The position numbers and the translations under genes were made by a program. A stretch of DNA of 64,000 nt from Erysipelotrichales bacterium. Its GTDB lineage: Bacteria; Bacillota_I; Bacilli_A; Erysipelotrichales; Erysipelotrichaceae. The stretch spans positions 1 through 64,000 of the forward strand of contig CAJTIT010000001.1 of the NCBI GenBank assembly GCA_910576345.1, read 5' to 3'. Under the pieces are notes generated by a model. The model was given only the letters and a program-made list of their open reading frames with translations. It was not told the origin of the DNA and searched no databases. Below, piece after piece: positions 688 through 60,361 of the stretch (position 1 is the first letter of the stretch; every line of letters starts with the position of its first letter).

Positions 688-1428
688 TTAATTATTACGA
701 TGATAATGCTTTTGGCGTAAATATTCAAAAGATAGTATTGCTGCACTAGAGGCGGCACTCATGGCATTACGGAAATCATTCGCATAGGGAATGTAAATGT
801 TTTGTTGAGCGTTTTTGATCACAACACTGCTCAAACCGCGCATTTCACCACCAATCGCAAGACAGAAACGCTTTGGAAATCGGTATGTGTAGAGATTTTG
901 TGCATCCGCAACTCGATTGGCACAGATAAGAGGAACATTCAAGTCGTTTAATTCAGTAATGATAGAGTTCATATCATCTGCTTGTATTAAAGAAATATAT
1001 TCACTTGCCCCGGCACTTGCTTTTGCGACAACACCGGCGGCATTTGTCCAATTACGTTTGGGTGTGATCAAACCATCACATCCGGCCGCATAAAGCGCAC
1101 GAATCACATAACCAAAATTGTAAGGATCCTCCACACCTTCCACCAAGGCAAAAAAAAGATCGTGTTTGTTTGCGACTTGTGATAATTTCTCAATAGTGCG
1201 CTTTTTACATATCGCAATCAGACCACCATGGGTGGAGCCTTGTGCAAATGCATCAATGCTCTCTCTGTTTACGAAAACAATTTCAATGTTTTTTTCTTTT
1301 GCACGATGAAGAATAAATTTCGTATCTTTATCGTGTTTTTTCTGATCGACCAGTATTTTTACAACATGACGATGTCCACCCAGTATGGCCGCCTTAACCG
1401 ATATGTTTCCTTCCAATATTTGTTCCAT
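688..1428 (-). CDS. TrmH/SpoU-family RNA 2'-O-ribose methyltransferase
   Basis: A 246-residue SPOUT methyltransferase that would transfer a methyl group from S-adenosylmethionine to a ribose 2'-OH in rRNA or tRNA. An N-terminal substrate-binding domain (about 1-75) is followed by the knotted catalytic domain. Motif 1 is DPYNFGYVIRAL (101-112), where the family has DPxNxGxxxRt; motif 2 is GGEMRGLS (193-200); motif 3 is IPYANDFRNAMSAASSAAIL (213-232), more alanine-rich than the usual SLNVSVAA. The length fits RlmB-like proteins. The start at 1428 has an AGGATGA ribosome site. It is divergent from nadE. The exact RNA target cannot be told from sequence. Confidence 0.85.
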   Translation of the reverse strand: MEQILEGNISVKAAILGGHRHVVKILVDQKKHDKDTKFILHRAKEKNIEIVFVNRESIDAFAQGSTHGGLIAICKKRTIEKLSQVANKHDLFFALVEGVEDPYNFGYVIRALYAAGCDGLITPKRNWTNAAGVVAKASAGASEYISLIQADDMNSIITELNDLNVPLICANRVADAQNLYTYRFPKRFCLAIGGEMRGLSSVVIKNAQQNIYIPYANDFRNAMSAASSAAILSFEYLRQKHYHRNN

Positions 1429-1593
1429 ATGATCATCCTAACGTTTTCCTATATTATTACTGATCAATTATATATAGAAACAAAAAGACATGCAACATAT
1501 TTTGCATCATTTTCATTCAAATGGAAAACCATAAAGGTGAAAAAGGTATCTTGAGGTAATGGGGATAGATTGAAATACCATAAGGAGTATGAT

Positions 1594-1689
1594 ATGATTT
1601 CTAACAAAAAGAGATGTTTTTTTAGCAGAAAGAGGGATGATTATGAAAATAGCGATTGTGACAATGGAAGTAAAAAGCATGTGTTATAA
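1594..1689 (+). CDS. Possible 31-codon upstream ORF overlapping the nadE start
   Basis: An ATG at 1594 sits 6 bases after a strong AAGGAG site (1582-1587) and opens a 31-codon frame ending at 1689, out of frame with nadE and overlapping its first 47 bases. The predicted peptide is basic (begins MISNKKRCFF) and has no recognisable domain. It could couple or attenuate translation of nadE, or be chance. The only support is the good ribosome site and spacing. Confidence 0.25.
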   Translation: MISNKKRCFFSRKRDDYENSDCDNGSKKHVL

Positions 1690-3295
1690 AGAAAATTTTG
1701 ATTATATGATGGAAATGATTGAGCGCGCCAAACAAGACCATGCGGATTTAATCGTATTTCCACAAAATGCGATCAGTGGTTATTATTTAGGTGATGCGTG
1801 GAAAGATCCTGAAACATGTCGATACATAGAATCATTCAATGCGCCTTTGATTCAGGCAAGTGAAGATTTGGCTATCGTTTGGGGAAATATCAAATACCGC
1901 AATGGCAAACTTTTCAACTGTGCTTTTTTCGCCTATCAAAAAGAGACCCATATGCGTGTGAAAACAAAAGAAACGCATGCATTTGCACAAGATGAAGCAT
2001 TTGATGAATTAAATATCAACAGCGCCATTCCTTATCAAAATCAAGTATTTGCCCTGAATTTTGGCACAAAACTTCAGTTAAGTGATTGGAACATCAACTT
2101 GGATGCCAAACCTTATGATTTGCATAATGAAACAAAGTTCAGCGGCAATGTGATTTATGTGAATGCGGTGGGCATGCAGAATGTGAATAAAGCAGTTATG
2201 ATGATGGAAGGCGGTAGTGCTGTTGTCTGTGAAGGCAAGTATTTGTGGCAGATGACGCATGGTGAAAGCGGATATGCTCTGGTTGATCTCAGCCAAAAAA
2301 CGTTCATTCAACCAAAACAAAGAAATTTGCTTGTTTTATTGAAACAGGCAATCAAAGGATTTGATGAACAGATTCTAGGCGGAAAAGCGCCTTGGATCGT
2401 TGGTTTATCCGGTGGGTTGGACTCTAGCGTTTCAGCGGCGCTGCTGGTATCAGCCTTGGGAAAAAATCGCGTCATTGGTTATGGCATGAGCAGTGTTAAT
2501 AATAGTGAACAAACAAAAGAAAATGCGCGTTTGGAAGCAAAACGTTTGGATATCGCATATCATGAAGGATCCATTCAGCCTTTGGTGGATGCGACAAACG
2601 ATATTCTTCATGCATATGGTTATAATCAAATAAAAGGGTTGGCTTTAGAAAATATTCAGGCAAGAGTAAGGGGACATCTGTTGTCTGGTTTTGCCTCACT
2701 TGTGGGCGGTGTTGTGGTGAATAACGGAAATAAAGTAGAGAATGCCCTTGGATATTGTACGTTATATGGAGATGCGATCGGTGCGATCGGAATCTTAGGC
2801 GATTTGACCAAAGTTCAGCTGTTTGATTTGGCGAAACAGCTGAATGGGGAATTTCAAAAAGAAGTGGTACCCACCAATCTTTTGGGACAGTTTATCGATG
2901 GTCGTGTTATTTTTGATGTTGCGCCTACCGCAGAATTAAAAACAGATCAAAAAGATCCGATGAAATGGTTCTATCATGATTATTTGGTAGATCATTTGGG
3001 CAGAGATTTGACGATTACAGAATTTCTAAACCAATATTTGTTTGGTTCTGTTTGGAAAAGTGAAATCGGCGAAATTATGAAATTCTATCATTTGGATGAT
3101 CCAAAAGTATTTGTGGAAGATTTCCAATGGTTTTATCGTACGGCAAAACGCAACAGTTTTAAACATACGCAAGTCCCGCTGATATTAACATTGACACAAA
3201 ACGGCTACGCATTGCGTAAAGAAGTGCAGGGAAGTATGGATTTATCACAAATAGAGAAACTGCTTGATCAGATCAATCAATTGAAAAAATCGTAA
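1643..3295 (+). CDS. nadE: NAD+ synthetase, NadE type, with degenerate glutaminase domain
   Basis: A 550-residue two-domain protein that makes NAD+ from nicotinate adenine dinucleotide, ATP and an ammonia source. Residue numbers here count from the upstream ATG at 1637. Residues 1-215 have the nitrilase fold; 245-552 are the synthetase, with the PP-loop SGGLDSS (258-264) and a conserved NNGNKVENALGY block. The nitrilase catalytic Glu-Lys-Cys triad looks broken: the usual FPE is FPQ (Gln43), and the Cys of the usual ICED is absent in LQLSDW (146-151); a candidate Lys remains near 109-111. Glutamine use is therefore doubtful. The start at 1643 is preferred over 1637 because AGAGGG (1631-1636) is then 6 bases away. 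It is probably monocistronic. Confidence 0.92.
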   Translation: MKIAIVTMEVKSMCYKENFDYMMEMIERAKQDHADLIVFPQNAISGYYLGDAWKDPETCRYIESFNAPLIQASEDLAIVWGNIKYRNGKLFNCAFFAYQKETHMRVKTKETHAFAQDEAFDELNINSAIPYQNQVFALNFGTKLQLSDWNINLDAKPYDLHNETKFSGNVIYVNAVGMQNVNKAVMMMEGGSAVVCEGKYLWQMTHGESGYALVDLSQKTFIQPKQRNLLVLLKQAIKGFDEQILGGKAPWIVGLSGGLDSSVSAALLVSALGKNRVIGYGMSSVNNSEQTKENARLEAKRLDIAYHEGSIQPLVDATNDILHAYGYNQIKGLALENIQARVRGHLLSGFASLVGGVVVNNGNKVENALGYCTLYGDAIGAIGILGDLTKVQLFDLAKQLNGEFQKEVVPTNLLGQFIDGRVIFDVAPTAELKTDQKDPMKWFYHDYLVDHLGRDLTITEFLNQYLFGSVWKSEIGEIMKFYHLDDPKVFVEDFQWFYRTAKRNSFKHTQVPLILTLTQNGYALRKEVQGSMDLSQIEKLLDQINQLKKS

Positions 3296-3353
3296 AAAAC
3301 TGGGATTTTGTATCAATACATGATACAATAGGGCAGTCTTGGAGGTGGAACAT

Positions 3354-4505
3354 GTGAAAATGCAGATGGATGAACCAATGAAAAAAAAGATATGGATGTA
3401 TGCATGTGTCGCATGTATCGCAATCGTCTTGTTTTTTGCATTTTATAAGTTCAGTGCGTTAAAAACATTTGTGCAAAGTATCATCGGTTTGATTTCACCA
3501 TTTATATTGGGCTTTGGCATTGCGTTTTTGCTCAACAAACCAATGATGATGATTGAAACAAAACTGCTTGGAAATTGGAATATCAAGCAAGTACACAAGC
3601 GAACGATTTCCGCTGTTTCCTCTATTGTGCTGGCAATTGCGGCGGTCTCTTTGTTTTTCTATCTTTTGATACCGCAGTTATTGGGCAATATTACATCTTT
3701 GGTGGATGCATTTCCCGGATATTTGGAAGACTTTCAGAAATTTGTAGATCAAATCATTTTAGAAAATAATTTGGATTTGGAAGAAATACAGAAGTTTTTT
3801 GGCGGAGAGGATTTGATTCATCGCTTGACACAGCTTGTGACAGAGGCGTTACCACAAATGGCAAAAACGATTTACAGCTTTATGAACATGTTATTGAATC
3901 TATTGTTGGGAATTATGTCCGCATTGTATATGATGATGGATAAAGAAAAGCTATGCCGTCATGTAAAGATTTCTGCCTATGCGCTATTGCCAAAACAAGC
4001 GGCGGATTATTCCATGCATATCTTTCAAATCGCAAGTGATGTTTTTAATAATTTCATTATCGGTAAAGCCATTGATTCACTGATTATTGGCGTTCTGTGT
4101 TATATCGGCATGACGATTTTACAGTTGCCATATGAACTGCTTTTATCGGTCATTGTCGGGATTACCAATATGATTCCTGTATTTGGACCGTTTATTGGTG
4201 CTGTACCGGGTGTATTTATTCTGTTGATCATTCATCCAACGTATGCGATCTACTTCGCACTGTTTATTTTATTGCTCCAGCAATTTGACGGAAATATATT
4301 GGGACCACTGATTTTAGGCGATAAACTGGGACTTCCTAGTCTTTGGATCCTGTTTGCGGTGTGTGTCGGCGGCGGGCTGTTCGGCGTTTTGGGGATGTTT
4401 ATTGGTGTTCCTGTATTTGCTGTCATTTATACGCTTTCAAAAGAATTCGTTGCGTACCGCTTGAAAAAGAAAGATATAACACTTCAAACTTTTGATGAAA
4501 CATGA
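3354..4505 (+). CDS. AI-2E family transporter (PerM/YdiK-like membrane protein)
   Basis: About 383 residues with seven or eight hydrophobic segments. It has the conserved late block of the AI-2E/UPF0118 family: NFIIGKAIDSLIIG, GITNMIPVFGPFIGAVPG, and a loop QQFDGNILGPLILGDKLGL. Family members export varied small molecules or Na+/Li+, and some release autoinducer-2; the substrate is not predictable. GTG at 3354 is chosen because GGAGG (3341-3345) lies 8 bases upstream; ATG 3360 is possible. A -10-like TACAAT lies near 3324. The gene ends at a shared terminator facing typA. Confidence 0.85.
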   Translation: MKMQMDEPMKKKIWMYACVACIAIVLFFAFYKFSALKTFVQSIIGLISPFILGFGIAFLLNKPMMMIETKLLGNWNIKQVHKRTISAVSSIVLAIAAVSLFFYLLIPQLLGNITSLVDAFPGYLEDFQKFVDQIILENNLDLEEIQKFFGGEDLIHRLTQLVTEALPQMAKTIYSFMNMLLNLLLGIMSALYMMMDKEKLCRHVKISAYALLPKQAADYSMHIFQIASDVFNNFIIGKAIDSLIIGVLCYIGMTILQLPYELLLSVIVGITNMIPVFGPFIGAVPGVFILLIIHPTYAIYFALFILLLQQFDGNILGPLILGDKLGLPSLWILFAVCVGGGLFGVLGMFIGVPVFAVIYTLSKEFVAYRLKKKDITLQTFDET

Positions 4506-18428: not shown

Positions 18429-20123
18429 ATGAAAGAAAGTTTATACTTGAAGGATGATCTTGCCATCGTCAACTTTAATATCGCATTTCCTTTATCCAAA
18501 CAGGAACTGTTAAAATCAGCGGAATTTGGCAATTTTCTAAGGAATTTTATCGATGTGGCAAAGGATGAGCACATCGATCTCTATAACTATATTTTAAATG
18601 GCAAAACACCAAGAGAAGCTACGTTTGAAATCATCAAATTGTTAAGGCAAATGATTGTATTGGAATTGGATGAAATCGACAGTGTGTATTTGAATGATAA
18701 AGAAAAGCTTTTGGATTTCGTAGAAGAAGTATATGATTATTGGAAAGGACATCAGCGCTTTTCCATTGTGAATGCAGGAAAAGGCATGGCCATTCAGGAA
18801 TCTGGTTTCATTGCGGCAGATTCCAGATTCAACAATTTGATTCGAGAATTGTATCGTGAAGTAGAAGAAAAGCTTTTGGGCAGAAAAAACAAGATCTATC
18901 GACAGCTTCAAACCGGTACCAACGCAGCGATTTCGATTCGTCAAAACAAAACGAAATTAAGTGAAAAATATGATGTGCTGAAAGATATTTGGTTCATTGA
19001 TTCCATTATGTTGAGAACTCCTTTGATTTTATATCCAAAAAGCAATAAGCGCAGCGGTATGTTTACAGAAAGAGATACCAATCCTATCCATGAATTTAGC
19101 GGCAACAAAGATACTTGGTTTGTGTATCCGGCCAAAATCGGATCACTTTTGGCATTTATCTATTTCCACCGTGATTTCATTGCTTCTGCCGTATCATTGG
19201 GCAATCTGTTTGAATTGGCAAATGAAGAAGAATGTAATCAGAAACCGGATTTGATTTGTCTGTTCGGTAATGAGGACAACAGCGAGCAAACAACGTTTTA
19301 TCATGACAAAGAAGAAAACATTTGGGTGGGTTGCGTATCGTATCATGAGCGCATTGATTATTTCGGCTATATTAAGAAAATGAGCTTGACCTTGCATAAT
19401 CTGGCACAAATGGAAAAAGGCTGGCTGCCTATTCATGGTGCATTTGTCAATATCACATTGAAGAACGGAAAAAGCAAGGGAATCATGTTAATGGGCGATT
19501 CCGGCGCAGGAAAAAGCGAGTCCATTGAAGCATTAAAGGCGTTGGGACATGAAAAAATCAAAAATATTGAAGTTGTATTTGATGATATGGGAACCATTCA
19601 CATTGAGGATGGCGTGCCTTATGGACAGGGTACAGAAATCGGTGCGTTTATTCGTTTGGATGATTTGGATCCGGGAACGCCATACCGTGACATGGATCGC
19701 TCCATTTTTATGAGTCCGCAGCAGTCCAATTCCCGCGTGATCACTCCGGCAGTATCTTATGACGTGGTTGCGACCAATCATAAGATTGATTTGTTTGCTT
19801 ATGCGAATAACTATGATCAAGCATTTGGTCTGCATCGTTTTGACTCTATGGAAGAAGCGAAAAATGTATGCAAAGAAGGAAAGCGAATGGCACTGGGGAC
19901 AACCCAAGAAGTTGGCATTTCTACTACGTATTTCGCCAATCCATTCGGTCCCATGCAGAAACAGGATATCTGTGAACCGTTGATTGATAACGTCTTTGCA
20001 TGTCTGAAAGAGAACGGCATTTTTGTAGGTGAAATCTATACCCATCTTGGTTTTAATAAGGAAAATAGAGAAGGACTTCAAACAGCTGCCAAAGAATTGT
20101 TGGAATTTATTGAAAATGATTAA
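18429..20123 (+). CDS. HprK/PEP-carboxykinase-like P-loop protein
   Basis: A 564-residue cytoplasmic protein. The P-loop GDSGAGKSES (356-365) matches the HPr kinase/phosphorylase and PEP carboxykinase superfamily, and the downstream DDMGTIHI and QGTEIGAFIR blocks resemble the metal-binding part of that fold. The N-terminal 340 residues are unlike standard PckA or HprK. Known relatives are annotated loosely as PEPCK-like; the substrate is unknown. The ribosome site is GGAGG. It has its own promoter region and a terminator, so it appears to be a single-gene unit. Confidence 0.7.
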   Translation: MKESLYLKDDLAIVNFNIAFPLSKQELLKSAEFGNFLRNFIDVAKDEHIDLYNYILNGKTPREATFEIIKLLRQMIVLELDEIDSVYLNDKEKLLDFVEEVYDYWKGHQRFSIVNAGKGMAIQESGFIAADSRFNNLIRELYREVEEKLLGRKNKIYRQLQTGTNAAISIRQNKTKLSEKYDVLKDIWFIDSIMLRTPLILYPKSNKRSGMFTERDTNPIHEFSGNKDTWFVYPAKIGSLLAFIYFHRDFIASAVSLGNLFELANEEECNQKPDLICLFGNEDNSEQTTFYHDKEENIWVGCVSYHERIDYFGYIKKMSLTLHNLAQMEKGWLPIHGAFVNITLKNGKSKGIMLMGDSGAGKSESIEALKALGHEKIKNIEVVFDDMGTIHIEDGVPYGQGTEIGAFIRLDDLDPGTPYRDMDRSIFMSPQQSNSRVITPAVSYDVVATNHKIDLFAYANNYDQAFGLHRFDSMEEAKNVCKEGKRMALGTTQEVGISTTYFANPFGPMQKQDICEPLIDNVFACLKENGIFVGEIYTHLGFNKENREGLQTAAKELLEFIEND

Positions 20124-55123: not shown

Positions 55124-55300
55124 AAAAAATTCACAACTTTTTTAATTTTGTACCAATCTATTTTTTTTAAACGCTGTTCTTATATGTGAATTTGTATACC
55201 TGAATAAAAAATTAGTAGTTTTTACTGATGTTTTTTATTATACGCAATTTATGAATCTGTTGAAGCTGTTCTTTATATATTTATGAAAGGGATGAATGAT

Positions 55301-58300
55301 ATGGAGAAGAAAATATGTACTCTTGTCTGCTTGATGATTGCGTTTTTGATTGGTTTACTTGTTGTGAATTCAACACCAGAATATATGAGAGCTGCCAGTG
55401 GTGAAAGTCAAAAAATTATTGATTTTGATATAGCGAGTGTTGATCAAGGAGTTAGTGGTTGGGATGCTTATGCGATCAGTGAAACACACCACCTTTATTA
55501 TGTTGATCTTGTGAATAGGGGGCGCCCAAATATTTCACAATTGCTTATGGATGACACTGGAAAACCTTTGAGTAATGTTCAAAACGTATCCGGAGGAGAC
55601 TATGGAAATTGTAAATCATTGATGGCGTTAAGATCTGATGGAACCTTATATATGAGAGGAAAGAATACATTCGGTCAATTTGGAAATGGAGCTATTTCTG
55701 ATACATGTACGACATTTTCAACAATTGTGGAACCTGGTGTTCAAAATATAATTGCGGTGGAATCAGGGTTAAATACAAATTATATTTTAACTTCTAATGG
55801 GGAGGTTTATGCGAGTGGAGATAATCAATATGGTCAATTTGGAAATGGGACTTTGGAATCTAGTACAACATTTACAAAAGTTCATATTAGCGATGTTAAA
55901 AAAATTGCAGTTGCTGGATCAGATACTGTGTTTGCGTTAAAGCATGATGGTACTGTTTATGGATGGGGGCGTTCTGTATACAATGGTAAAGAGTCATTAA
56001 AAAATGTAACAGAACCAAATCTCATTTATACAGATGAAAATGAGCCGTTTCGTAATGTGATAGATATTGATGCTTCGATATCACAAAGATTTCCCGCACT
56101 AGTTGTTCTTACAGATAACTCAGAAGTGTTTTTTTTGGGAAAACGATATTCTGATGAAGATACGTCTGTTATTAATTATGGACAATATTCAGCGCTCGGT
56201 ACTGAAGGCGTCATCGCTATAAATGTAGGGCGGAATGTAAATCCCCCAAGTTTCTACGGATTTTTTGTTTTAGGAAATGGGAAATATTATGTTAAGCAAG
56301 TAGGAATAAGTGGAGGTGTTTTTCCACCTAAGGATTTAAATTATATAAAAGTGGGTGGTGTGTCTACTATAGCGTCATTATCGGAAGACGGAGAATTATA
56401 TGTAGAGAATACTAAAATAGAATTTAAATTTCCCTTGGTTCTTTCCGCGATAAAAAAAGATAATACAATTTACGAAAGTGGTGAAAAACACAACGATTCC
56501 ATTATATTAAATGTGACCTCGTCATCATCGAAGATACCTACATGCTTGGTTGAGGATCCGGTAGGAAATGCGGCACAAGTATGTGAGGATTTTTCAAACA
56601 ATAGTGTTAACGTCGATATAGACACACAACGTGTTTATAAAAAATACACGATGACAAACGATGTAATGAGCGATAGCTTTATTATAGATTTGTTTAACGG
56701 ATTACCACAGCTTGAGGGTTATTCATCAACACAGATAAACAAAATAAAGATTACGGATTTGATTTCTTTAACCGTTCCTACTGAACAAAAAAACTGGAAT
56801 ACTTATACGGCAACGATAACGGATTCAACCAATAAAACTACTGAATTTACAGGTGGTACATTAGATAAAGGCACCTATACGATTCATGTTGTGGATGCGT
56901 ATGGTAATACACAAGATTTCAAATTTGAAGTTTCAGATAAACCAGAACCAACTGCTATATTTACACCATCAAGTGCAGACCTTGTTTATAAAGATGCATA
57001 TACAAAGATAAATGGAACTATTGGCACATTTGCTCTTCAATATCCGGAAGGAGAACCAACATCCACAATCGCATCCATTCAATTAGGTACCAGTGGCGAT
57101 GAATCACACTTTAGTATTGATACGACTGGGGCATTGAAAGTAAAAGGAAATGATTTAGATGCTGGAACTTATAATGTCACTGTTTCTGGTCAAGATGCCA
57201 ATAAAATGAGTTTCACAAAAACAGTTCAAATTATTGTAGGCAAGGCAAATCAAGATAATTATCAAATCACAAATGATGCAAATTATTCATTCAAAGTAAA
57301 TCAAGAGGTTGCAATCACAACTTCTGGTAATGTTAGTGGCGAAAGGGAAACATATAGAATTACAAATGGAAATACGATTGCTCAAATTACAAATACAGAT
57401 AAATTTAAAATGCTCGTGAAAGGTACCTTTACTTTAGAAGCGACAGTTGCTGGAAATAACAATTATAATTCTAAAACAGTGACGAAACAAATCACACTTT
57501 CTGAATTACCAACACAAACCAATCCAATCAAGATTAGCAGTGGAGATTCTATCATATATGGAAATACGTATACACCAATCTCTACTGGTGGAACGGGAAG
57601 CGGAAATGTTACTTGGGCGATTGAAAATGATTCAGGTACAGGCGCTAGCTTAAACAATGGCTCTATTCGTGTCACAGGAATTGGAACCTTTACACTTAAA
57701 GTAACCAAAGCAGGAGATACGAATTATCAATCATCTTCTGATTCCAAAGTCATCACAGTAAACAAAAGAAAGACAACAGTAAAACCAAAAGATGTGACAA
57801 GAAAAGTAGGAGAAGCATTTAAAGACAATGGAGTTACTTACAATCCACAGCCAGTCTCCGGAGATAGTTTAGGAACACCAATCATCACAAGCAAATATCC
57901 AACAAGCCAACAAGCAGGAAGATATACAGACGGTATACAAGTCACAGGTTTGACGAATCCAAATTATGATTTTGAGTATCAAGAAGGAACACTGATAATC
58001 AATGATACAACCCTACCAAACAATGGAAGTGGATATTATAAAATTACAGGAACGTTAGGAAAGAACAATTGGTACGTGAGTGATATCAAGATATCAACAT
58101 TGAATAAGGATGGATATGATCAAATCAGTTCGGATGGAATCAATTTTCAAACAACACCATTGATTTATCAAACAGATGGCGATTACCAAGTCACATTCTA
58201 TTTGAAGAATTCTACCACAGGTATTATCGCAAAAGGGATCAATTATCAAGTGAAGATCGATCAAACACCACCAACAGTTCCAACCTTGACGATGAATCAA

Positions 58301-60361
58301 CTGAATACATCAAGAATGGCAAGACTGATCAACTTCTTGAGTTTTGGTAACTGGATGAATACAGGTGCCGAAGTAATCATGTCAAGTACCGATGGAACGA
58401 GTGGAATTGACAACTACAGTTATGTAGAAACAGACACCAAAGGAACAAGCAATACAAAGACAAGTACAACCGGAAAAGTCACGTATCAAAACGATGTAGA
58501 AATTGGTATAACTGCCAAAGCATGTGACAAAGCAGGAAATTGTAGCGATTTAAGTGCGAGTGAAACCTTAATGATTGATCGAAAAGGACCTGAAATCACC
58601 GGAGTGAAAGATAAGAGTGTATATAAATACTATTATCTACCAAGATTTGTGAAAGTCAAAGATAATGGCAGCGGATTATCGTATGCGGAATACTTGAAAG
58701 ATGGAGCGCAAGCAGGAACAATTCAAGAAAATGTCAATGAGCGAATCGATGGCGTAGGAAAATATGAAGTCTATGCGATTGACAATGCAGGAAATGAATC
58801 TACTTTATCTTTTGAAATCGTACCATTACCCAATATTGATGATATTGATGGAAGTGATGAATCCAAAGACATCATCGATCAAGTAAAAGATGAATACGAA
58901 GAAGTCAAGGATCATTTGACAGATGAAGAAAGAAAAGAATATGAAGACTGGATCAAAGATGCGCAAGACAAATGGGAATCAGAACGAAAGAAAGTCATAG
59001 AAACTGATGACAAAACATCTAAGGTAGAAGGAGTAGGAGATACCACATTTGATCCTAATTTGGAACTGATCGTGGATGATATAACCGATCAGCCATTACC
59101 ACTTTTACCAAAGAAAGCAAATGTTGTATATGATGTGTACTTACAAAAAGGCAATACAAAAGTAGAACCGGATGGAAGTATCAAAGTATACCTACCTTAT
59201 ACAGACAATGAAGATCCAATCATCTATCAGATCGATGAAAATGGCAAAGTTACAGAGATCAAAGCAGAAAAAGAAGGAAACTATGTCACATTCATTACGG
59301 ATGAACTTGGGAAATTTGCGATAAGCAATACGGCACAACCGGACAACAAAGACAACATGTGTGTGGTTGGACCGGATGGGAAAGTAGAGTCAGGCGATGA
59401 AGTATGTGGAAAGCCAAATGACAAAGGCGATCAACCGACAAAGAAACCGGATGGCAGTGTAGAAGTACCGGATGGAGGAAAAGTGGAATTTCCAAATGGT
59501 ACAGAAATAGACACACCTAATGGAGCCATTATCAATCCGGATGGATCCGTCACCTTACCAGATGGCACAGAATATGATCCGAATGGAAACATCAAAGATA
59601 AAGATGTATGTAAACTGAATGGAAAAGATATTAACATCGATACGGATGATGATGGAAAACCGGATGTGAATATCGATATCGATGGAGACTGTAAACCAGA
59701 TATCAATATTGACACAGATAATGATGGTATTCCAAATACAAATATTGATACCGATTTGGATGGTAAACCAGATTACAATATCGATACTGATAACGATGGT
59801 AAACCAAATGTCAATATCGGACCAGTCAATGATCCATGGAAACCAAATACATGTGGTGTTGTGAATGAAATCACGTTCTGTACAGATTCTTATAAAAAAC
59901 TATATTTAAACATTGATAGTGACGGAGATGGAAGACCGGATATCAATGTGGATTTGGATGGCGATATGGAAGCGGATATCAATATTGATATTGATGGAGA
60001 CAATATACCGGACATCGATATCGACAGTGATGGAGATGGAAAGCCGGATATCAATGTGGATACAGACAATGACGGCAAAGCAGACAAAAACATTGTAAAA
60101 ATCACAGAATGGAAACCGGATAAAAATGTAGATGGATCGATACCATATGATACGATGTCGAATGTATCATCATCCAATACAGATTCCAACGGTAATGGAA
60201 ATGATTCACAACTGGGAGCCAATATGGGAGGAACGATAGGATCAGCACAAACGGGGGATGAAACAAAACTATTCCTATGGTGGATTATTGTATGTATCAA
60301 TATATGTATGATGATCTATTGTTATAGGAAAGTAAGAAAAGAACAAAAACAAGAAAGCTAA
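55301..60361 (+). CDS. Large surface protein: RCC1-like repeats, Ig/MBG-like domains, Asp-rich repeats, C-terminal anchor
   Basis: 1686 residues. A signal peptide (to about 32) is followed by RCC1/BLIP-II-like beta-propeller repeats to about 330 (LRSDGTLYMRGKNTFGQFGN, LTSNGEVYASGDNQYGQFGN), then several beta domains, an MBG-like domain near 822-901, further Ig-like modules, a charged helix region near 1200, and Asp-rich repeats near 1442-1600 (NIDTDNDGKPDxNID) that should bind Ca2+. It ends SAQTGDETK, a membrane helix and RKVRKEQKQES, a possible non-standard sortase signal. ATG 55301 is 9 bases after AAAGGG. Confidence 0.85.
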   Translation: MEKKICTLVCLMIAFLIGLLVVNSTPEYMRAASGESQKIIDFDIASVDQGVSGWDAYAISETHHLYYVDLVNRGRPNISQLLMDDTGKPLSNVQNVSGGDYGNCKSLMALRSDGTLYMRGKNTFGQFGNGAISDTCTTFSTIVEPGVQNIIAVESGLNTNYILTSNGEVYASGDNQYGQFGNGTLESSTTFTKVHISDVKKIAVAGSDTVFALKHDGTVYGWGRSVYNGKESLKNVTEPNLIYTDENEPFRNVIDIDASISQRFPALVVLTDNSEVFFLGKRYSDEDTSVINYGQYSALGTEGVIAINVGRNVNPPSFYGFFVLGNGKYYVKQVGISGGVFPPKDLNYIKVGGVSTIASLSEDGELYVENTKIEFKFPLVLSAIKKDNTIYESGEKHNDSIILNVTSSSSKIPTCLVEDPVGNAAQVCEDFSNNSVNVDIDTQRVYKKYTMTNDVMSDSFIIDLFNGLPQLEGYSSTQINKIKITDLISLTVPTEQKNWNTYTATITDSTNKTTEFTGGTLDKGTYTIHVVDAYGNTQDFKFEVSDKPEPTAIFTPSSADLVYKDAYTKINGTIGTFALQYPEGEPTSTIASIQLGTSGDESHFSIDTTGALKVKGNDLDAGTYNVTVSGQDANKMSFTKTVQIIVGKANQDNYQITNDANYSFKVNQEVAITTSGNVSGERETYRITNGNTIAQITNTDKFKMLVKGTFTLEATVAGNNNYNSKTVTKQITLSELPTQTNPIKISSGDSIIYGNTYTPISTGGTGSGNVTWAIENDSGTGASLNNGSIRVTGIGTFTLKVTKAGDTNYQSSSDSKVITVNKRKTTVKPKDVTRKVGEAFKDNGVTYNPQPVSGDSLGTPIITSKYPTSQQAGRYTDGIQVTGLTNPNYDFEYQEGTLIINDTTLPNNGSGYYKITGTLGKNNWYVSDIKISTLNKDGYDQISSDGINFQTTPLIYQTDGDYQVTFYLKNSTTGIIAKGINYQVKIDQTPPTVPTLTMNQLNTSRMARLINFLSFGNWMNTGAEVIMSSTDGTSGIDNYSYVETDTKGTSNTKTSTTGKVTYQNDVEIGITAKACDKAGNCSDLSASETLMIDRKGPEITGVKDKSVYKYYYLPRFVKVKDNGSGLSYAEYLKDGAQAGTIQENVNERIDGVGKYEVYAIDNAGNESTLSFEIVPLPNIDDIDGSDESKDIIDQVKDEYEEVKDHLTDEERKEYEDWIKDAQDKWESERKKVIETDDKTSKVEGVGDTTFDPNLELIVDDITDQPLPLLPKKANVVYDVYLQKGNTKVEPDGSIKVYLPYTDNEDPIIYQIDENGKVTEIKAEKEGNYVTFITDELGKFAISNTAQPDNKDNMCVVGPDGKVESGDEVCGKPNDKGDQPTKKPDGSVEVPDGGKVEFPNGTEIDTPNGAIINPDGSVTLPDGTEYDPNGNIKDKDVCKLNGKDINIDTDDDGKPDVNIDIDGDCKPDINIDTDNDGIPNTNIDTDLDGKPDYNIDTDNDGKPNVNIGPVNDPWKPNTCGVVNEITFCTDSYKKLYLNIDSDGDGRPDINVDLDGDMEADINIDIDGDNIPDIDIDSDGDGKPDINVDTDNDGKADKNIVKITEWKPDKNVDGSIPYDTMSNVSSSNTDSNGNGNDSQLGANMGGTIGSAQTGDETKLFLWWIIVCINICMMIYCYRKVRKEQKQES
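57700..58702 (+). repeat. Copy 1 of a 1-kb near-identical block in the surface-protein genes
   Basis: Aligns without gaps to 62998-64000 (constant offset of 5298) with few base changes, whereas the 5' parts of the two genes differ strongly. Confidence 0.8.

Follow-up and report, generated by a model that had tools for sequence, protein, structure and literature searches.

Two-domain NAD synthetases (NadE) such as those of Acinetobacter (5kha) and M. tuberculosis (3dla) are glutamine-dependent enzymes with a Glu-Lys-Cys triad, and in the accessible part of one source this architecture is treated as glutamine-dependent across 19,848 sequences, with an allosteric NAD site inferred in dimeric enzymes (PMC7196632). 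According to the available portion of another source, glutamine-dependent NAD synthetases accept free ammonia as well (PMC6946656). The NAD synthetase family has been explained by whole forms being gained, lost and transferred, and the accessible text of that account describes no dead glutaminase (PMC3376133). No report of a dead NadE glutaminase was found at the level of titles and the beginnings of abstracts, most subscription journals lying outside the coverage. The nearest parallel in logic appears, by analogy, to be human CPS1, an ammonia-using enzyme which, in the available extract of PMC4655335, has lost the catalytic Cys but still carries its ancestral glutaminase domain in inactive form, much as the NadE described here does. 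It differs in being another enzyme of another pathway, and its Cys changed to Ser; nor does that extract show a case in which the CPS1 domain outlasts its synthetase. The CPS1 glutaminase also belongs to another class than that of NadE.

The window, that is, the whole stretch of 64,000 nucleotides of Erysipelotrichales DNA analysed here, contains a nadE gene whose features are collected in Table 1. Its product shares domain order, both folds and the synthetase motifs with the glutamine-dependent two-domain enzymes, the closest solved relative by sequence being that of Acinetobacter, but unlike them it has lost the catalytic Glu and Cys, its YRE-loop segment is rewritten and its N-terminal domain is shorter. 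It would resemble single-domain, ammonia-dependent NadE in having a synthetase site without a working glutaminase, whereas it keeps a fused N-domain; its synthetase half comprises about 315 residues, and the open frames of the family's single-domain enzymes are mostly about 250-300. Reasoning from sequence, we consider it very probable that this NadE stems from a glutamine-dependent ancestor, has lost glutamine hydrolysis and uses ammonia, and that the dead domain of its clade is under selection. The enzyme would convert deamido-NAD to NAD with ATP and free ammonia, the death of the glutaminase being presumably an old event in the window's clade and one that occurred several times in the family; ammonia in the gut would plausibly render glutaminase activity dispensable, and the selected dead domain would probably assist the synthetase, either structurally or by binding a ligand. 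The loss of Glu and Cys, the intact synthetase motifs, the sole gene copy, the recurrence of the loss and the conservation and survival of the domain can be read in the sequences compared; from them we infer that ammonia is the donor and that the domain may have a non-catalytic function.

Table 1. Features of the nadE locus, with positions in the window.
Feature	Position	Strand	Remarks
nadE, two-domain NAD synthetase	1643..3295	+	550 aa + stop; open frame
nadE, alternative start	in-frame ATG at 1637, two codons upstream		relatives align from ATG at 1643
Nitrilase-like glutaminase domain, catalytically dead	1643..2347	+	residues 1-235; from alignments and predicted nitrilase fold
Gln41 codon, at catalytic Glu of FPE	1763..1765	+	Q in 16/16 clade rows; E in 29/29 intact rows
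Lys107 codon, most likely the retained catalytic Lys	1961..1963	+	K in 16/16 clade rows
Gly141 codon, at nucleophile Cys of ICED	2063..2065	+	two alignments concur
NAD synthetase domain, ATP-pyrophosphatase (PP-loop) and substrate motifs intact	2393..3292	+	roughly residues 251-550
Divergent neighbour gene, methylase-like	688..1428	-	kept beside nadE and beside decayed copies; presumably a TrmH/SpoU-type RNA methylase, judged from sequence
Membrane protein gene downstream of nadE	3339..4505	+	adjoins nadE in most relatives, not decayed copies; product taken to be AI-2E transporter-like

An earlier note on this DNA had proposed the frame, which is indeed open, and the change of FPE to FPQ, which recurs throughout the clade. 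Gln41 occupies the catalytic Glu position both in a MAFFT alignment of 90 relatives, whose N-termini were cut back to a Met close to where the alignment begins, and in a profile-profile alignment (hhalign) of the window's clade against 36 intact relatives. The same note was right that the nucleophile Cys is gone, but misplaced the site: both alignments put it at Gly141, within ALNFGTKL, a few residues before the LQLSDW it had pointed to. Across the clade rows reading LNFxxx, this position varies among G, H, K and Q. Lys107 is likely, but not certainly, the retained catalytic Lys. Its register was fixed by the distance between the NCA/NSA strand and Lys, which follows that of Acinetobacter NadE, and hhalign sets the gap on the other side of Lys107. 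In nitrilases the catalytic Lys is located after the second strand of a hairpin, and Lys107 sits after the second hairpin strand in window NadE. The Glu-Lys-Cys triad of glutamine-dependent NAD synthetase is thus replaced by Gln41, probably Lys107, and Gly141, and the clade has a rewritten loop past Lys. The N-terminal part comprises 235 residues, 36-70 fewer than the 271-305 of intact relatives, a shortening that falls mainly in the region after the nucleophile; the earlier view that the domain keeps its fold length therefore fails, although the predicted nitrilase fold is retained. An intact triad elsewhere in the window's N-domain was sought and rejected, Cys occurring only at 14, 59, 93 and 196 and none at 141. 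In one relative (L010), a CED string lies at residue 115, eight residues past Lys, in a loop away from the nucleophile position. An assembly or sequencing error was likewise discarded as the cause of the triad loss: equal losses occur in many genomes, and since Gln41 is invariant in 16 clade rows and six further genomes of the same genus show the loss, as a check of close relatives revealed, the loss is real.

The synthetase half was correctly described earlier as intact, SGGLDSS, NNGNKVE and GYCTLYGD all being present; SGGLDS, NNxNKVE and GYCTLYGD are kept in all 13 full-length clade members, among which the synthetase residues are invariant. Against Pfam (hmmscan), window NadE scores 123.6 bits for PF02540 (cut-off 21) and 26.6 bits for PF00795 (CN_hydrolase, cut-off 23.2), the latter match covering the first 57 of 256 positions only. 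It passes TIGR00552, the synthetase-domain family (113.7 bits versus a cut-off of 63.65), and falls far below the NCBIfam equivalog NF010588 for two-domain NadE (179.6 bits versus 479), a cut-off applied here to the window protein. An AlphaFold2 model built from 13 sequences (mean pLDDT 81.9, pTM 0.81), compared with known folds by Foldseek as well, aligns along its full length to the two-domain NadE 3n05 (Z 30.2, 476 residues, 3.0 Å) and also to the two-domain NAD synthetase 3ilv (Z 28.9, 490 residues, 2.7 Å), and its first ~218 residues match the nitrilase 4izu (Z 25.8, 208 residues, 2.0 Å). In the model, the nitrilase fold is retained despite the lost active site.

Pathway genes were searched in one genome, that of the host (2.83 Mb, 185 contigs, 99.89% complete). 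A PF02540 profile search yields one clear NAD synthetase there, together with five weaker matches (E 1.8e-7 to 5.7e-4, three above the family cut-off) that span 38-121 of 242 profile positions and resemble other ATP pyrophosphatases. Nicotinate phosphoribosyltransferase (PncB) and NadD are present, and NCBIfam names the matched stretches accordingly. With both enzymes present and no other NAD synthetase, NAD synthesis from nicotinate must pass through window NadE, and as this enzyme is needed and has no glutaminase site, ammonia would be its natural donor. Free ammonia is thus likely to be the nitrogen source, as the earlier note had suggested, and the sole NAD synthetase and the presence of PncB and NadD support this inference well. 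The other source it had envisaged, a separate nitrilase-type glutaminase, finds no counterpart: the only other CN_hydrolase match in the genome resembles apolipoprotein N-acyltransferase (Lnt). No Amt was found in the host genome by a search positive in 14 of 14 control genomes, and no PII by one positive in 13 of 14. Amt is rare across the family generally; it occurs in 0 of 34 dead-type genomes versus 29 of 161 others (Fisher p 0.003, kinship ignored), and versus 6 of the 47 genomes whose P0001-type NadE was not classed as dead (Fisher p 0.037, kinship again ignored). This co-occurrence pattern is suggestive and not independent of kinship. Ammonia-rich gut contents would make Amt and the glutaminase both dispensable.

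The phenomenon extends beyond a single gene: the loss recurs in the family, and one clade keeps, under selection, a dead domain that has survived loss of the enzyme. A match to P0001 was found in 118 of 195 family genomes. Of the 90 rows of the alignment, 80 were kept for a synthetase tree (four decayed copies and six single-domain enzymes being left out, and loci L001, L008 and L097 dropped as repeats of the same genes), and 32 of these are dead at the glutaminase. Among 46 family rows called intact, 45 show all three motifs and the remaining one is truncated; L048 was counted as intact though its Glu region is missing on a truncated contig. Parsimony requires six changes of state, four of them forced by starred branches, and the drawn tree, several deep branches of which are weak, requires eight losses if a lost site is never regained, which puts the number of independent glutaminase losses at four or more, and probably at six to eight. 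Two more genomes (G020 and G064) have dead copies split over contigs. Most dead-type genomes (29 of 32) show just one PF02540 match at 1e-10, so that the dead enzyme is as a rule their only NAD synthetase; the other three (G024, G071 and G119) have two matches. Genus g58 contains both dead and intact states, and named strains with differing states include Longicatena caecimuris, Amedibacillus dolichus, Dielma fastidiosa (a dead and an intact copy) and Merdibacter massiliensis. When the clade's dead domain was used as query against 395 genomes of the class, matches occurred in 17, all of the same family, and a search of plasmids found only distant NadE. As the glutaminase died in place several times in one family, filing a protein as glutamine-dependent by architecture alone can be wrong.

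Several loci in the family show other arrangements. One genome (G024) carries a dead and an intact two-domain NadE (L021 and L051); for the dead copy, the locus in the named Dielma fastidiosa record is L144. A single-domain NadE accompanies the dead type in two genomes (L095 in G071, L096 in G119), and other members of the genus of G071 have only a short NadE-type frame; these states may possibly represent stages of replacement. At L039 (G053:C20:3000-8000), an 859-aa open frame (800-3379, + strand) consists of an N-terminal part, which we take from its sequence to be NadD-like, followed by an intact glutamine-dependent NadE; two consecutive steps of NAD synthesis appear to be fused here.

In two genera the dead domain has outlived the synthetase. 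Three genomes of one genus (Candidatus Merdibacter merdigallinarum, an uncultured Erysipelotrichaceae bacterium and Merdibacter massiliensis) hold decayed copies of 389, 390 and 397 aa at the old nadE locus, and one genome of a second genus (an uncultured Eubacterium) holds a copy of 455 aa; none was found in G052, the other genome of that genus in the set. The decayed copies adjoin the same divergent methylase-like gene, and they keep the dead domain and have lost the synthetase motifs. Their C-terminal part was compared with Pfam and, within the whole model, with PDB folds: Pfam reports weak CN_hydrolase only and no NAD synthase, and the model (mean pLDDT 87.7) has glutamine-dependent NAD synthetases as its top fold matches. 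In a tree of N-domains from 33 chosen rows of the 90, those of the decayed copies nest inside the window's dead clade (support 100/99), which indicates that the glutaminase died before the synthetase decayed. All four genomes have one other NAD synthetase, an open frame of 647-653 aa in which FPE and CED are present, the judgement being based on those two motifs. The former synthetase parts, of 157-223 codons, are open frames, for which the chance by base composition in the four copies is 5.7e-7, 0.0036, 2.3e-5 and 1.9e-10. The three Merdibacter-type proteins are 56-64% identical in the dead domain and 25-43% in the remainder, and these values, together with the open frames, rule out plain pseudogenes. 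Genes next to the decayed copies offer no clue to function; one neighbour, which adjoins them at Merdibacter-type loci only, is presumably rubrerythrin-like. A partial intact glutaminase in G030 was rejected as a further free-standing case, as it runs off the contig end. The family thus offers a natural series from working through dead to free-standing glutaminase domain.

Conservation of the dead domain was gauged by comparing N-domain identity pairwise at equal synthetase identity, the pairs not being independent. At 65-75% synthetase identity, N-domain identity is 57.7% in the clade's dead domains (12 pairs), 57.0% in intact ones (48) and 40.4% in other dead ones (6); the corresponding values are 48.8% (18 pairs), 54.8% (33) and 32.5% (6) at 55-65%, and 68.6% (3 pairs), 74.2% (27) and 61.5% (7) at 75-90%. 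In the 55-65% and 75-90% bands, conservation of the clade's dead domain falls a little short of that of intact ones; overall, these pairwise identities indicate constraint nearly like that on working domains and clearly stronger than in the other dead clades of the family, which also lost the triad separately but whose dead domains evolve much faster. Six clade pairs were tried for dN/dS, and the four with unsaturated synonymous change give 0.17, 0.11, 0.13 and 0.16 for the dead domain. For two of these, both close pairs, the synthetase half could be computed as well; there the dead domain (0.17 and 0.11) stands about twice as high as the synthetase half (0.07 and 0.06), so that the synthetase half is the more tightly constrained. 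Residues were compared between 16 clade rows, decayed copies included, and 29 intact rows. Invariant switches comprise Gln41 (E in 29/29 intact rows), Asn139 (E in 24/29), Asn150 (I in 29/29) and Asp154 (S in 29/29), and Tyr85, Arg86 and Lys107 likewise do not vary within the clade but are unmatched in the intact rows of the alignment, which for Lys107 reflects unsure gap placement. Several of these clade-invariant residues lie next to the former positions of Glu, Lys and Cys. Invariant switches around a variable nucleophile position would be easier to reconcile with a site that binds without catalysing than with decay, and persistence and conservation together suggest a non-catalytic job for the dead domain.

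As to the nature of that job, the domain may bind no ligand and act only as structural support while the protein folds or its oligomers assemble, a reading we place somewhat below an even chance. Both domains join in the assembly of known two-domain NadE, and human CPS1 retains an inactive glutaminase domain, as far as the available parts of the sources go (PMC6946656; PMC4655335). Retention for assembly, as the earlier note proposed, is therefore possible but cannot account for everything: in Merdibacter and a second genus the dead domain is still there although the synthetase half has gone, which is hard to explain if it merely props up its own synthetase, and clade-specific invariant polar residues stand at or near the old site. 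More tentatively, the domain may have been rebuilt as a non-catalytic ligand-binding module that once controlled the synthetase, perhaps by sensing glutamine, NAD or a nitrogen metabolite, and that became a free-standing regulator in Merdibacter and the second genus after the other NAD synthetase took over. If the dead domain does have a new job, the transition from enzyme domain to regulator becomes testable.

Mere decay of a domain without any role is improbable for the window's clade: it fits the family's other dead clades (40.4% versus 57.0% at equal synthetase identity), but the clade itself stands at 57.7%, with dN/dS of 0.11-0.17. It is quite unlikely that a separate, non-nitrilase glutaminase docks on the synthetase and supplies ammonia, a possibility raised in the earlier note and recalling the separate nitrilase-type glutaminase subunit of Thermus NadE (accessible part of PMC3376133), as the genome has no other nitrilase except the Lnt-like protein and the old partner domain is still fused to the synthetase. 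Least likely of all, a glutamine-dependent enzyme with glutaminase or amidase activity at an unusual site (e.g. Lys107 with Asn139, Asn150 and Asp154) would suit the strong conservation of the clade's dead domain and the invariance (16/16) of Lys107 and several polar residues switched relative to intact relatives, but not a nucleophile position that is variable in the clade and never Cys, nor a rewritten loop after Lys.

Elsewhere in the window, a 564-aa ORF (18429-20123, + strand) has no Pfam match at E 0.001, and a 1692-aa protein (55283-60361, + strand) carries RCC1 repeats and an MBG-type domain and is perhaps surface-exposed.
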